This document shows, one piece after another, positions 38,415 through 57,052 of a stretch of DNA of 64,000 bases (position 1 is the stretch's first letter; each line of letters begins with the position of its first letter). A model generated the notes under the pieces. It was not told the DNA's origin, did no database searches, and worked only from the letters and a program-made list of their open reading frames with translations. The DNA comes from Bacillus sp. AFS055030 (lineage in GTDB: Bacteria; Bacillota; Bacilli; Bacillales; Bacillaceae_G). The position numbers and the translations under genes are program-made. The DNA is taken from positions 62,001 to 126,000 of the forward strand of contig NZ_NUGT01000031.1 of NCBI RefSeq assembly GCF_002574545.1. The letters run 5' to 3'.

Positions 38415-38580
38415 ATAAAATAAAAAACGCCATTCTCTCAACAAAATGAGAGAATGACGTTAAAGTACAGATTACGCCTTATCTCTCATGTTTTAAACAT
38501 GCTGGATTTAGCACTTTTTAGCTTTCGCTAAAGTTGCCGGGTTTCATAGGGCCAGTCCCTCCACCGCTCTCGATAAGGAT
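38415..38580 (-). promoter_or_regulatory. SAM-I (S-box) riboswitch with terminator, controlling yitJ-metH
   Basis: The minus strand carries the S-box consensus: CTTATCGAGAGCGGTGGAGG, then GACTGGCCC, TGAAACCCGGCAAC, and a closing GATAAGG at 38483-38477. This gives the P1 to P4 aptamer at 38477-38578. An intrinsic terminator follows: AACGTCATTCTCTCA pairs with TGAGAGAATGGCGTT (38461-38447 / 38440-38426), then TTTTTATTTT. By the known mechanism, SAM binding favours the terminator and shuts off the methionine genes. The yitJ start is 20 bp past the T-run. Confidence 0.95.
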
Positions 38581-53824: not shown

Positions 53825-55738
53825 TTACAACGCTAACCAAAATTCCATTAGCGATTCTAAATCTTTATCTAATTCAATTTTCCTGCAATATAAATCATTC
53901 AGCTTATTGTAATCTTCCTCTCTATTCATCGCTAGATCAATCTCATTAATATCCTTTTCAAGTCGTTCAATTTTTTCTAGAGCTTCAGCTTTAATTGATT
54001 CATGATCAGCATTAATTTTAACTTTTTTCCGAATTCCTTTTTTTTCAACCCGTTCTTTCGTTTCTTTTAAACGATTTTCTTCTTTTATACTTTTATAATC
54101 ATCATAATTGCCAAGATAGCTTTTAAATTCATAATCCTCAATAGCGATTACTCGTTGACTCATTTTATTAATAAAATATCTGTCATGGGAAATAAAGAAA
54201 ATTGTGCCTTTAAAATCATCAAGTGCCTCTTCAAGCGTTTCGATTGAATCAATATCAAGATGATTTGTAGGTTCATCAAGAATTAACAAATTGATATCTT
54301 TGAATAATAACATACCTAATTTCAGCCTAATTCTCTCTCCACCTGATAAGAATTTTACTTTTTTAAATACACTTTGTTTATAAAACATAAATTTTGAAAG
54401 ATATTCCCTTGCTTTGCCTTCTGGTATCGAGATATCCTCTCTAAAACATTCAAGTACTGTCATTTCTTCGTTATTAAAGTTTATTTTCTGAGGTAAATAT
54501 GCACTCAGCACATTTGCACCTAGTTTTACCACACCATTATCTGATTTTTCTTCACTTAATAGCATCTTTAAGAAAGTAGTTTTTCCACTTCCATTAGGAC
54601 CGATAAGACCAACTCTTTCCCCATAATTAACCAATAAATCCGCATCTTTAAATAGCAATTTTTCTTCATAAGATTTCGAAATCGCCATTGCTTTAATTGT
54701 TTCATTTCCAGATCGTTTGGATCCCTTAAATTCTAATTTCATATTTTCTTTTTCAAAAACTGGTTTTTCAATTCTATTTAACTTATCAAGTTTTTTCTGT
54801 ATACTTGCAGCTCTTTTAAAAAATTTGTTATTATCAGCCCGCATTGCCCAATCTCTCAAATTGGTTACCGTATTTTCCATCGATTTTATCTTTTTTTGTT
54901 GTTCTTTAAAATGTTCAAATTGAATCTGTAAGTTTTTTTCTTTTTGCTCTACAAAAGATGAATAATTACCCTTATACGTAACTGATTCCATTTCTTCAAT
55001 TTCTACAATTTTTGTTACGACTTTATCTAAAAAATATCGATCATGGGAAACAATCAAGACAATTCCTTTATAATTTTTTAGAAAGTCTTCTAACCATTCA
55101 ACTGAGTCCATATCTAGATGATTTGTAGGTTCATCAAGTAATAATATATCCGGGCTATTGATTAAAAGTTTACCAAGTAATACAGTCGTTTTTTCACCAC
55201 CACTTAACAAATCAAACTCTCTGTTTAAAAAACTTTCTTCAAATTTAAGTCCCGTACAAACCTTTCCTAATTTTTCTTCTCTTTCGTATCCACCTTTTAC
55301 TTCAAATAATTGTACTAATTCGCTATATTTTAACATTGCTTTTTCTAGTGCTCTGTTTTCTAGCACTTTCATTTGTTCTTCTAAGTCACGCATTTGATTT
55401 TCTAATTGAATCACTTCATCAAAAGCCATATTTAAAACATCAATTACTTTTAAGCCAGTAGGGTAGACTGGCGTTTGTTCTAAATATGCAGTTGTGAGTC
55501 CTTTTGGAATGAAACTAATTAACCCTTCATCATATCCATAGCTAGAAGTTTGAGGATAACCAGGATAATAATGCATCGGCACAATTCCAGCTATACTCTT
55601 CAGAATGGTACTTTTACCACTCCCATTGATTCCAATAATACCGATTTTATCACCTTCATAAGCTTCAAATGTTATATTTTTAAGCACTAAAGTTGCATCC
55701 ATATATTTTTTAAGACCATTTATTTTTAATTCGAACAT
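53825..55738 (-). CDS. ABC-F family ATPase (possible ribosome-protection / antibiotic resistance type)
   Basis: This 637-aa soluble protein has two ABC domains and no membrane segment. Domain 1 has Walker A GINGSGKST, signature LSGGEKTT and Walker B ILLLDEPTNHLD. Domain 2 has GPNGSGKTT, LSGGERIRL and LLILDEPTNHLD. They are joined by a helical interdomain linker (residues ~255-325), and the C-terminal ~60 residues are a charged coiled coil. Domain 1 has an unusual insertion after Walker A (YYPGYPQTSSYGYDEG). ABC-F proteins act on the ribosome E-site. ATG 55738 follows AAGGA by 7 bases. The long attenuator leader upstream favours an inducible resistance-type role; drug class cannot be told. Confidence 0.85.
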   Translation of the reverse strand: MFELKINGLKKYMDATLVLKNITFEAYEGDKIGIIGINGSGKSTILKSIAGIVPMHYYPGYPQTSSYGYDEGLISFIPKGLTTAYLEQTPVYPTGLKVIDVLNMAFDEVIQLENQMRDLEEQMKVLENRALEKAMLKYSELVQLFEVKGGYEREEKLGKVCTGLKFEESFLNREFDLLSGGEKTTVLLGKLLINSPDILLLDEPTNHLDMDSVEWLEDFLKNYKGIVLIVSHDRYFLDKVVTKIVEIEEMESVTYKGNYSSFVEQKEKNLQIQFEHFKEQQKKIKSMENTVTNLRDWAMRADNNKFFKRAASIQKKLDKLNRIEKPVFEKENMKLEFKGSKRSGNETIKAMAISKSYEEKLLFKDADLLVNYGERVGLIGPNGSGKTTFLKMLLSEEKSDNGVVKLGANVLSAYLPQKINFNNEEMTVLECFREDISIPEGKAREYLSKFMFYKQSVFKKVKFLSGGERIRLKLGMLLFKDINLLILDEPTNHLDIDSIETLEEALDDFKGTIFFISHDRYFINKMSQRVIAIEDYEFKSYLGNYDDYKSIKEENRLKETKERVEKKGIRKKVKINADHESIKAEALEKIERLEKDINEIDLAMNREEDYNKLNDLYCRKIELDKDLESLMEFWLAL

Positions 55739-55861
55739 AAAATTTCCTTCTTTCATCCATAAATTTCGTTATACATATATGGACAAGGTAAAGAAGTGAA
55801 CTTACGATTTAATTATTAAAATACGACTCATATTTTTTAATTTTGTTAAGAGGAACAAAAG

Positions 55862-55905
55862 CCAAATAAAAAAGACTATAAGAAGAAAGTATCTTCTCAC
55901 AGTCT
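55862..55905 (-). terminator. Leader terminator (attenuator) 130 bp upstream of the ABC-F gene
   Basis: On the minus strand AGACT-GTG-AGAAGA pairs with TCTTCT-TAT-AGTCT (55905-55892 / 55886-55873), followed by TTTTTATTT. It lies inside the leader of the ABC-F gene. An upstream segment TATAAGAA (55962-55955) is perfectly complementary to TTCTTATA in the 3' arm (55884-55877), so an alternative antiterminator pairing is possible. Confidence 0.8.
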
Positions 55906-55954
55906 AATAAACTTGGTAATTGATCATTTATTTAGAGCAATTTAATCATACAAT

Positions 55955-56056
55955 TTCTTATATGAGCCCCATCAGCTAAAACAAATATCTGATGGAATAC
56001 TAAAAAAATTATCTAGTATTCAATAAATAATCATCTCGTTATCAGTAAAGTAAGTT
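55955..56056 (-). promoter_or_regulatory. Structured leader RNA of the ABC-F gene
   Basis: Between the leader peptide and the terminator the minus-strand RNA can form several hairpins. GAATACTA/TAGTATTC pairs at 56021-55995, and CCATCAG/CTGATGG at 55995-55969. The segment AACTTACTTT (56056-56047) is perfectly complementary to AAAGTAAGTT (56193-56184), which lies between the Shine-Dalgarno and start codon of the leader ORF. A ribosome on the leader ORF would break this 10-bp helix. Confidence 0.6.
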
Positions 56057-56161
56057 ACCTTCTAATTTGCCTTAAATTCCATAAGAGCATAACAAATAAA
56101 CCTAACCATTAGGCAATTTTTAACTCATTAGGAAAACATATTAATTTAAATTAAATTAATA

Positions 56162-56182
56162 TTAGCAATTAGTTGGCATCAT
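56162..56182 (-). CDS. Leader peptide MMPTNC upstream of the ABC-F gene
   Basis: A six-codon ORF (ATG ATG CCA ACT AAT TGC TAA) starts 11 bases after a perfect AAGGAGGA (56194-56201) and lies about 25 bases after the predicted transcription start. Such a strong ribosome site before a tiny ORF, followed by alternative hairpins and a terminator, is the hallmark of ribosome-stalling leaders ahead of ABC-F and other resistance genes. Translation has not been shown. Confidence 0.65.
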   Translation of the reverse strand: MMPTNC

Positions 56183-56213
56183 AAACTTACTTTCCTCCTT
56201 CGAAATTTTCTAT

Positions 56214-56242
56214 ATTATCCCATTTTTTTGATTTTTTGTAAA
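56214..56242 (-). promoter_or_regulatory. Promoter of the ABC-F leader transcript
   Basis: On the minus strand TTTACA (56237-56242) and GATAAT (56214-56219) are spaced by exactly 17 bp, with 10 of 12 consensus bases. Transcription would start near 56207 and give a leader of about 470 bases. Confidence 0.7.
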
Positions 56243-56341: not shown

Positions 56342-57052
56342 TTAGTAACTTACATAATTAAACATTCCCTGCACTGAAGCGGTAATTTTAATTTGCCCCT
56401 CTTGAATAGGAGTTGTTTGGCCACTGAATGCAGCTGCAGTCATAGTTAATGATGACATCGGACGTACAATTTGAATCCCTTCTTCAACCAACCAAATTGG
56501 AATGTTATTAATTGATAAACCTAGAGATTTTGCGATGTTTTCTGCATTCATTTTTGCATTTAAAGTAGCCTTTTGTAGTGCCTCTTTGTAATACGGTTCG
56601 GGATTTGATACTTCGAATGTCAGATTCCTAACTTCATTTGCTCCATTTTCAACTGCAACATCAATCACTTTCCCAACATTTGCAAGATCCTTCACGATTA
56701 CTTTGAAAATATGACTCACCCGATATCCCTTAAAAATTTGCTGTGAATCTTGGTAATCAACAATTCGATCGATTGTATATGAATTCGTTTCAATTTCATC
56801 TTGTTTAATTCCTATACCTTTTAATGCTTCTATTATTTTATTCGAAATATTTGCATTCTCTGTCTGCGCTGTTTGTACTTTCATATCTTCAACTACAGAT
56901 CCTAATAATACAAATGACTGGTCGGGCTTGACTGATACTTCACCTTTTCCTGTTGCTTTAATCGTATAATTAGCATTAATATTCCGTGATCGGAAAGCAC
57001 TTTGATATTGAGGCGTTGAATAATAATTATTTAATGGATAAATCTTCCTCAC
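56342..57052 (-). CDS. SIMPL domain (DUF541) protein
   Basis: This 236-aa protein has a SIMPL domain over residues ~28-236. It begins IKATGKGEVSVKPDQSFVLLGSVVED (the family opens G-x-G-x-v-x-x-x-P-D), with the hallmark NANISNKIIEALKGIGIKQDEIETNSYTI near 65-93. It has no signal peptide, unlike many periplasmic members; the basic, Tyr/Asn-rich N-terminus (residues 1-25) is extra. The family's function is poorly known; some members affect signalling or oxidative stress. The start is GTG 57052 with AAAAGGAT unusually close, so the start is uncertain. Confidence 0.8.
   Translation of the reverse strand: MRKIYPLNNYYSTPQYQSAFRSRNINANYTIKATGKGEVSVKPDQSFVLLGSVVEDMKVQTAQTENANISNKIIEALKGIGIKQDEIETNSYTIDRIVDYQDSQQIFKGYRVSHIFKVIVKDLANVGKVIDVAVENGANEVRNLTFEVSNPEPYYKEALQKATLNAKMNAENIAKSLGLSINNIPIWLVEEGIQIVRPMSSLTMTAAAFSGQTTPIQEGQIKITASVQGMFNYVSY

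Follow-up and report, generated by a model that had tools for sequence, protein, structure and literature searches.

In the 64,000-nucleotide (nt) stretch of contig NZ_NUGT01000031.1 from Bacillus sp. AFS055030 analysed here (hereafter the window), a gene for an ABC-F ATPase lies on the minus strand behind a long leader that, taken as a whole, is best explained as an attenuator that monitors translation of a six-codon open reading frame (ORF) encoding MMPTNC, a reading we regard as very probable. The parts of a leader-peptide attenuator ahead of this gene are real and conserved, which confirms what a preliminary description of the window, made from the sequence alone, had reported: the promoter with its 17-nt spacer, the Shine-Dalgarno (SD) sequence, the MMPTNC ORF and the terminator are all located on the minus strand (Table 1), and both anatomy and conservation agree with the ribosome-sensing role proposed there. 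Three features go beyond that description, namely a pause signal, a hairpin that sequesters the SD of the ABC-F gene, and a wider family of related elements.

The leader ORF (ATG ATG CCA ACT AAT TGC TAA), preceded by the SD sequence AAGGAGGA, begins 444 nt before the ABC-F start codon, and the nearest earlier ORF on the minus strand ends at 56342. The ABC-F start at 55738 is preferred over the listed one at 55756 because the ATG at 55756 lies inside the conserved SD hairpin. Considered alone, neither the promoter (7 promoter-like sites, against 10.0 in shuffled sequences) nor the terminator (1 against 0.5) exceeds chance. The leader RNA folds to -122.2 kcal/mol, compared with -82.0 (standard deviation 5.2) for shuffled versions, giving a z of -7.7 with none of 100 shuffles as good.

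Table 1. Features of the ABC-F locus in window coordinates.
Feature	Position	Strand	Basis or remark
ABC-F ATPase, 637 amino acids from ATG 55738	53825..55738	-	ORF and family models
Hairpin over the ABC-F SD, CTTCTTT...TCCATA / TATGGA..AAAGAAG	55747..55796	-	alignment and pattern scan
Intrinsic terminator, 5′ arm AGACTGTGAGAAGA	55873..55905	-	terminator scan and ortholog alignment
Conserved structured core (covariance-model match)	56034..56198	-	covariance model
Helix P1, 56192-56185 with 56055-56048	56048..56192	-	closes the core, masks the leader spacer
Helix P2, 56168-56164 (final leader codon and stop) with 56071-56067	56067..56168	-	covariance alignments
Helix P4, 56134-56123 with 56088-56077	56077..56134	-	covariance alignments
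Proposed RNA polymerase pause signal, hairpin P5 (GCCTAA...TTAGGT) and TTATTT at 56099-56094	56089..56114	-	shuffle-controlled scan
Helix P3, AT-rich hairpin right behind the leader stop	56138..56163	-	covariance alignments
Leader ORF MMPTNC and stop	56162..56182	-	conserved as M-x-P-[T/S/A]-N-C
Leader Shine-Dalgarno sequence	56193..56200	-	sequence and ortholog alignment
Promoter, TTTACA (-35), 17-nt spacer, TG-extended GATAAT (-10)	56214..56242	-	promoter-site scan

Among 40 genomes searched, 11 (the window's own included) carry the ABC-F protein at 64-100% identity, and all 11 loci have the leader ORF, the core and the terminator; the promoter region can also be aligned in all of them, with variants such as TTTGCC at -35 in L008. 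Run on 397 sampled genomes of the order, a covariance model built from these orthologs (R1) finds 46 copies, which are spread over 45 genomes and 16 of 135 genera, and a third model (R3) recovers the identical set. Downstream of 45 of these copies lies an ABC-F gene or its remains, and downstream of the other (L095) a GNAT gene. A scan with the ABC-F alignment found 154 relatives in named genomes, and of the best 80 of them (from Gottfriedia, Neobacillus, Peribacillus, Rossellomorea, Metabacillus, Mesobacillus, Clostridium, Alkaliphilus and others) 78 have the element. It was not found at the remaining two of the best 80, L175 and L176 (for L176 in an upstream stretch of 1,040 bases). At L175, a Ruminiclostridium metagenome-assembled genome, a GGAGG and a three-codon ORF (ATG CAT TTT TGA) stand some 200 nt upstream of the ABC-F gene, overlapped by a terminator-like GACTGTAAG...CTTACAGTTTTTTT; this may be a minimal leader standing in for the scaffold.

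Leader and gene also appear at various stages of loss. At L094 the leader is cut to MEPTN and lacks P3 while the ABC-F gene is in pieces, so that the two decay together; L063 and L241 are orphan leaders that retain scaffold and terminator, with the ABC-F gene lost past codon 17 in the first and reduced to a start remnant in the second. At L192 (genome G1034) the leader and first ABC-F codons are followed by a 407-residue ORF, the first long one in the scanned stretch, and the ABC-F gene there may be interrupted. Broader draws across the phylum and the class gave matches in 3 and 9 of 398 genomes, respectively, and were unproductive except for a copy before a GNAT gene in genome G1136; a search of 589 plasmid records revealed no close ABC-F relative, every record falling below 60% identity. 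Rfam 15 has no family that reaches its gathering score over the leader, the best sub-threshold match being mir-1 (22.8 bits of 45.6), nor does any family reach it at 13 relative loci, and a known Rfam element was rejected on these scans.

The conserved structure is, on comparative sequence evidence, a large multi-helix core that has undergone compensatory changes between Bacilli and Clostridia. Its outermost helix, P1, joins AAGTAAGT to the complementary ACTTACTT. In alignments fitted to the structure of the model, and for that reason biased toward it, 95.7% of cells are paired among the 46 order-level copies, with two-sided changes at 16 of 42 pairs (3.7 in shuffles, at most 9 when the structure is slid); the 94 copies of the second model (R2) give 96.2% and 17 pairs (3.4; at most 12), and 41 rows that include relatives give 94.5% and 31 of 42 (11.2; at most 18). 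Within this evidence, more weight rests on the slid control and on the changes seen in distant relatives. The ORF and the pairings, on whose conservation the preliminary description had made its proposal depend, are thus both kept from Bacilli to Clostridia, and the alignment of relatives that it had called for shows two-sided changes well above shuffles. Its complement of the leader start region stands as P1, with 8 nt on each side, but its two later hairpins fall in a variable region, the structure that is conserved being the larger core.

Conservation extends to the SD, start, frame and stop of the leader ORF; where the stop is lost, another follows two codons downstream. The 124 rows of the ABC-F set (L095 and L063 included) reduce to 101 distinct elements, of which MEPTNC accounts for 33, MEPTSNC for 10, MTPANC for 9 and MMPTNC for 8. 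Residue counts were made on 100 of them, leaving out the truncated leader L094; an earlier count of 108 leaders held near-duplicates. Ala, Ser or Thr lies two residues before the last Cys, Tyr or Phe of the motif in 98 of the 100, and Pro is at position 3 in 99, the exception being L179 with Gln. Codon 2 is unconstrained, and seven-codon leaders gain one codon (3 nt) and retain [S/T]-N-C. Since helix P2 takes in the TGC codon and the final base of AAT, the Asn and Cys may be fixed by the RNA rather than by the peptide. Codon 4, on the other hand, is unpaired, and related scaffolds have TAT, TGT or GTA at its position, so the A/S/T rule looks like selection on the peptide. The rule is also followed by 11 of 13 additional elements that precede ABC-F relatives or remnants.

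Between the strands of P4 lies hairpin P5, which ends immediately before TTATTT, an arrangement that agrees with published NusG pause geometry (PMC12288461) and places the predicted 3′ end of the paused transcript at 56089. A hairpin followed by TTNTTT recurs in 73 of 80 distinct Bacilli-type elements and 31 of 47 relatives, as compared with 3-4% of shuffled elements; the motif counted alone is in 42 of the 46 order-level copies. The terminator, whose end is 135 nt from the ABC-F start, is found in 46 of 46 copies with a 5′ arm mostly near GACTGTAAGAAG, and it is this shared sequence that serves as evidence, because the scan always reports its best hairpin. The SD hairpin stands out clearly in most of the 11 orthologs but departs in L011; it fits a strict pattern in 30 of the 46 copies. 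It also holds an unpaired-looking CCTTGTCC, GCGTAAC-like and retained in many relatives, which exceeds what a simple SD mask needs.

The link between core and terminator is the part of the scheme that has been downgraded. An 8-bp antiterminator that the preliminary description had nominated, TATAAGAA, is at that place in just 3 of 11 orthologs (L001, L002 and L004) and was rejected. The alternative, in which the 3′ strand of P1 would pair with the 5′ arm of the terminator, is a weakly supported candidate: at least 6 pairs can form in 92 of 121 ABC-F segments (43% in shuffles) and in 37 of 43 relative segments (48%), counts from which rows lacking a good terminator (3 of the 124 and 4 of the 47) were dropped, near-duplicates being kept.

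Put together, these parts suggest the following course of events. Transcription would start a few bases past the -10 element, near 56207, and RNA polymerase would pause after P5 and TTATTT, which would give a ribosome time to load on the MMPTNC ORF. A ribosome that completes the six codons and departs would let P1-P4 close, so that the terminator forms and transcription ends, and the hairpin that covers the ABC-F SD would still silence any read-through transcripts. A drug that binds the peptidyl-transferase centre, by contrast, would freeze the ribosome with Thr4 as the penultimate residue, Asn5 in the P site and Cys6 in the A site. The stalled ribosome would cover the 5′ strands of the core helices and free the 3′ strand of P1, thereby preventing the terminator; the ABC-F protein would then be expressed and relieve the stall.

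Several observations weigh against this account. The alignment of the 11 orthologs gave no covariation support (covariation term +0.75, two-sided changes at 3 of 42 pairs), although these first sequences are too alike to be informative on pairing, and the later alignments carry the bias described above. Hairpin plus TTNTTT is present in only 1 of 21 clostridial ABC-F elements and missing from the other 20. The candidate antiterminator duplex is scarcely better than shuffled arms (mean z of -0.60, -0.75 and -1.09) and does not appear when the window's own segment or that of L005 is folded, although it is present in the fold of L009. The ABC-F SD is mostly paired in only 64 of the 107 cases, among 124 rows, in which it could be located. 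As for the peptide, L009 and L177 have Ile at the A/S/T position, and two clostridial ABC-F relatives deviate there with Val (L215) and Tyr (L216). Finally, L095 places an MKPTNC leader before a GNAT that is no known phenicol enzyme.

Which drug would be sensed is a question on which the peptide and the protein both bear. Chloramphenicol and linezolid arrest ribosomes best when the penultimate residue is Ala and less so when it is Ser or Thr (PMC8987054, PMC11505993). Macrolide leaders carry R/K-x-R/K (PMC6851288). The upstream ORFs (uORFs) of ABC-F genes of the pleuromutilin, lincosamide and streptogramin A (PLSA) type are 3-4 codons long (MIN, MR[I/M], MK[L/Q], MAGN), a shortness that the authors ascribe to drugs of low context specificity (PMC10201436). 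The lincosamide, pleuromutilin, streptogramin and macrolide classes foreseen in the preliminary description are doubtful for this reason, the known leaders of such drugs differing from a [T/S/A]-N-C end.

The best family model for the ABC-F protein is NF000355 (ribosomal protection-like ABC-F; 451.4 bits against a cut-off of 380). It falls short of the curated OptrA model (309.7 bits against 1450) and of the Vga, Lsa, Msr, Sal and CplR models (264-336 bits against 680-780). By a rough comparison of spans, the chains of LsaA (7nhk), ExpZ/VmlR (6ha8) and Lmo0919/VgaL (7nhn) exceed its aligned stretch by 17-24 residues, and those of PoxtA (7p7q) and EttA (7msc; residues 183-560 of the protein against 159-538 of the chain) by 2 each, so that the linker looks short, as in PoxtA but equally as in the housekeeping factor EttA. 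The linkers of PoxtA and OptrA are short (PMC8987054). Residues ~58-80, which lie in the first ATPase domain between its Walker A motif and the motif that follows, hold an insertion like YYPGYPQTSS.GYDEG that is conserved in the 8 orthologs aligned.

On the strength of the A/S/T penultimate set, the apparently short linker and the contrast with the 3-4-codon PLSA-type uORFs, we tentatively predict a phenicol- or oxazolidinone-type inducer, at rather less than even confidence. The same attenuator could instead answer another inhibitor of the A site or peptidyl-transferase centre, of the nucleoside, lincosamide or pleuromutilin type, with a context rule of its own, and we judge this a serious but similarly tentative possibility. 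The GNAT that L095 couples with MKPTNC has a nourseothricin acetyltransferase as its nearest solved relative (E 6e-5), while the A/S/T set matches the phenicol/oxazolidinone rule and over the aligned stretch the protein is nearer in length to PoxtA than to LsaA, VmlR or VgaL. A homologue of this GNAT in genome G022 (70%) has no such leader in the upstream stretch examined.

A reading without any drug, in which a leader made slow by its start-proximal Pro and N-C-stop end is resolved by a housekeeping-type ABC-F whose shortage induces the gene, would account for the nearly invariant Pro3, the EttA-like length of the linker region and the general nature of the best family model. It is nonetheless unlikely, as the patchy distribution (45 of 397 genomes) is unlike that of a housekeeping factor, and the scaffold also precedes RlmA-like genes with macrolide-type leaders as well as efflux and modifying-enzyme genes. 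That the core is a riboswitch or a protein-binding RNA with an incidental ORF might be thought from its size, its many conserved unpaired bases and its compensatory changes, but this is very improbable given that the ORF has retained its SD, start, frame and stop and its peptide is under constraint, that the ORF codons are part of the core helices so that translation must open them, that relatives change the peptide along with the gene, and that the pause motif explains part of the conserved unpaired bases. Sensing of Cys, Asn or Pro starvation through charged tRNA, to which the constancy of TGC (103 of 107 rows) and AAT (99 of 107) before removal of near-duplicates might point, is hardly credible with a single Cys codon that becomes Phe or Tyr in L011, L172, L247 and L249, with helix P2 able to account for TGC and the last AAT base, and with downstream genes outside amino-acid metabolism.

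Related but weaker-matching forms of the leader RNA also stand before genes other than ABC-F. On clostridial genomes R2 matches 19 of 20, with up to 4 copies each, and it finds one weak copy (E 0.004) in a class-wide draw. R3, run on 206 genomes of one clostridial family, gives 69 matches in 46 of them. Forty-seven extra elements, being second or weaker copies, were opened (44 of the 69 R3 matches, L218 and L221 from the R2 search of clostridial genomes, and L191); because this tally leaves aside 25 of the R3 matches, among them most of the strongest, it is no measure of frequency. They precede ABC-F relatives (12, at 54-66% identity), one ABC-F remnant (L241), SnoaL-like (9), MutS2-like (8), RlmA-like (5), N6-adenine methyltransferase-like (3), MATE-like (2), GNAT (2) and S4-domain (2) genes, and single genes for a nucleotidyltransferase, a beta-lactamase-fold protein and an ABC exporter, with classes assigned by family models on 1-3 members each and by N-terminal likeness for the others.

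In these relatives the leader peptide differs along with the downstream gene. R-x-R, which has been shown to sense tylosin ahead of tlrB (PMC6851288), occurs in the leaders of all five RlmA-like genes, in three of them read from ATG and in two in frame from GTG. Leaders before SnoaL-like and nucleotidyltransferase genes mostly read [I/T]-T-T-C, and those before MutS2-like genes mostly ..EVSN or ..VVLN. Some links are looser, because no clear ATG leader can be read at L221 or L255 and because the element is 0.75-1.05 kb away from the gene in five of the eight MutS2-like cases. Five R3 matches at E 0.001-0.01 could each be due to chance, yet they precede RlmA-like (L266, L268) or MutS2-like genes (L267, L269, L270) as stronger matches do. 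Overall, it seems reasonably probable that P1-P5 and the pause signal form a plug-in attenuator of Bacilli and Clostridia in which sensor peptide and output gene are swapped together. If so, the peptide would show to which kind of ribosome stall each gene responds, and the leader sequence could be used to predict the inducers of unstudied resistance and rescue genes. Behind MTPSNC and MEPSNC, L214 and L238 encode small proteins with an S4 domain (family model on L214), possibly ribosome-rescue factors that answer the same signal. The GNAT leader readings end in LLLAN (L255, ambiguous) and IIAN (L191), and the GNAT of L255 has weak similarity to the kasugamycin acetyltransferase AAC(2′)-IIb.

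These results add a widely conserved, structured, peptide-containing attenuator that has no match in Rfam 15, and they make it probable that an uncharacterised ABC-F lineage takes part in drug response. They also suggest that several unstudied genes (SnoaL-like, S4-domain, MutS2-like and N6-adenine methyltransferase-like) answer stalled ribosomes. The leader peptides would be natural reporters of drug context rules, so that the predicted drug-peptide pairs are directly testable. Elsewhere in the window, an S-adenosylmethionine (SAM) riboswitch (RF00162) lies at 38476-38579 on the minus strand.

Attenuators of this kind are already known (vmlR, tlrB, cplR), but the scaffold family and its peptides are undescribed as far as our searches reach, which in the literature went mostly to the level of titles and the starts of abstracts. 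A uup motif has reportedly been published; comparison with it was limited to the Rfam scans and one fruitless literature search term. The chloramphenicol leaders of cat-86 and cmlA share the drug-dependent stall on a short peptide with a small penultimate residue that is proposed here, but they control an acetyltransferase gene or an efflux gene, do so by translation attenuation, and encode the peptides MVKTD and MSTSKNAD. The scaffold is set apart from the vmlR and tlrB leaders by their published descriptions rather than by homology comparison.

The vmlR leader of Bacillus subtilis has a uORF within an anti-antiterminator stem, an intrinsic terminator, a hairpin that sequesters the SD, an ABC-F target and the NusG pause motif UUAUUU, which is accompanied by a putative pause hairpin, but its uORF encodes the tripeptide MIN, lincomycin induces it, and the pause hairpin is a separate stem-loop rather than nested inside P1-P4 as here (PMC9226507). 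The leader of tlrB (yxjB), also from B. subtilis, similarly combines a leader peptide, a NusG pause, a terminator and an SD hairpin, and is paralleled by the R-x-R leaders of the clostridial relatives before RlmA-like genes; it differs in its peptide (MIIQFIRYR), its 177-nt length and its tylosin sensing, and in that the stalled ribosome itself blocks the base of the terminator (PMC6851288). Dual control by terminator and SD hairpin has been shown for both (PMC9226507; PMC6851288). Further afield, the uORFC-6-1 motif upstream of hflX in Bacillales likewise joins a structured RNA to a drug-type leader peptide, but the structure lies wholly past the start codon, the peptide is RLR and the gene is another one (PMC8632094). 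In cplR of Clostridioides difficile a uORF controls both transcription and translation attenuation of an ABC-F gene, as proposed here, although with the uORF MR[I/M], a two-hairpin leader and induction by retapamulin and lincomycin (PMC10201436).

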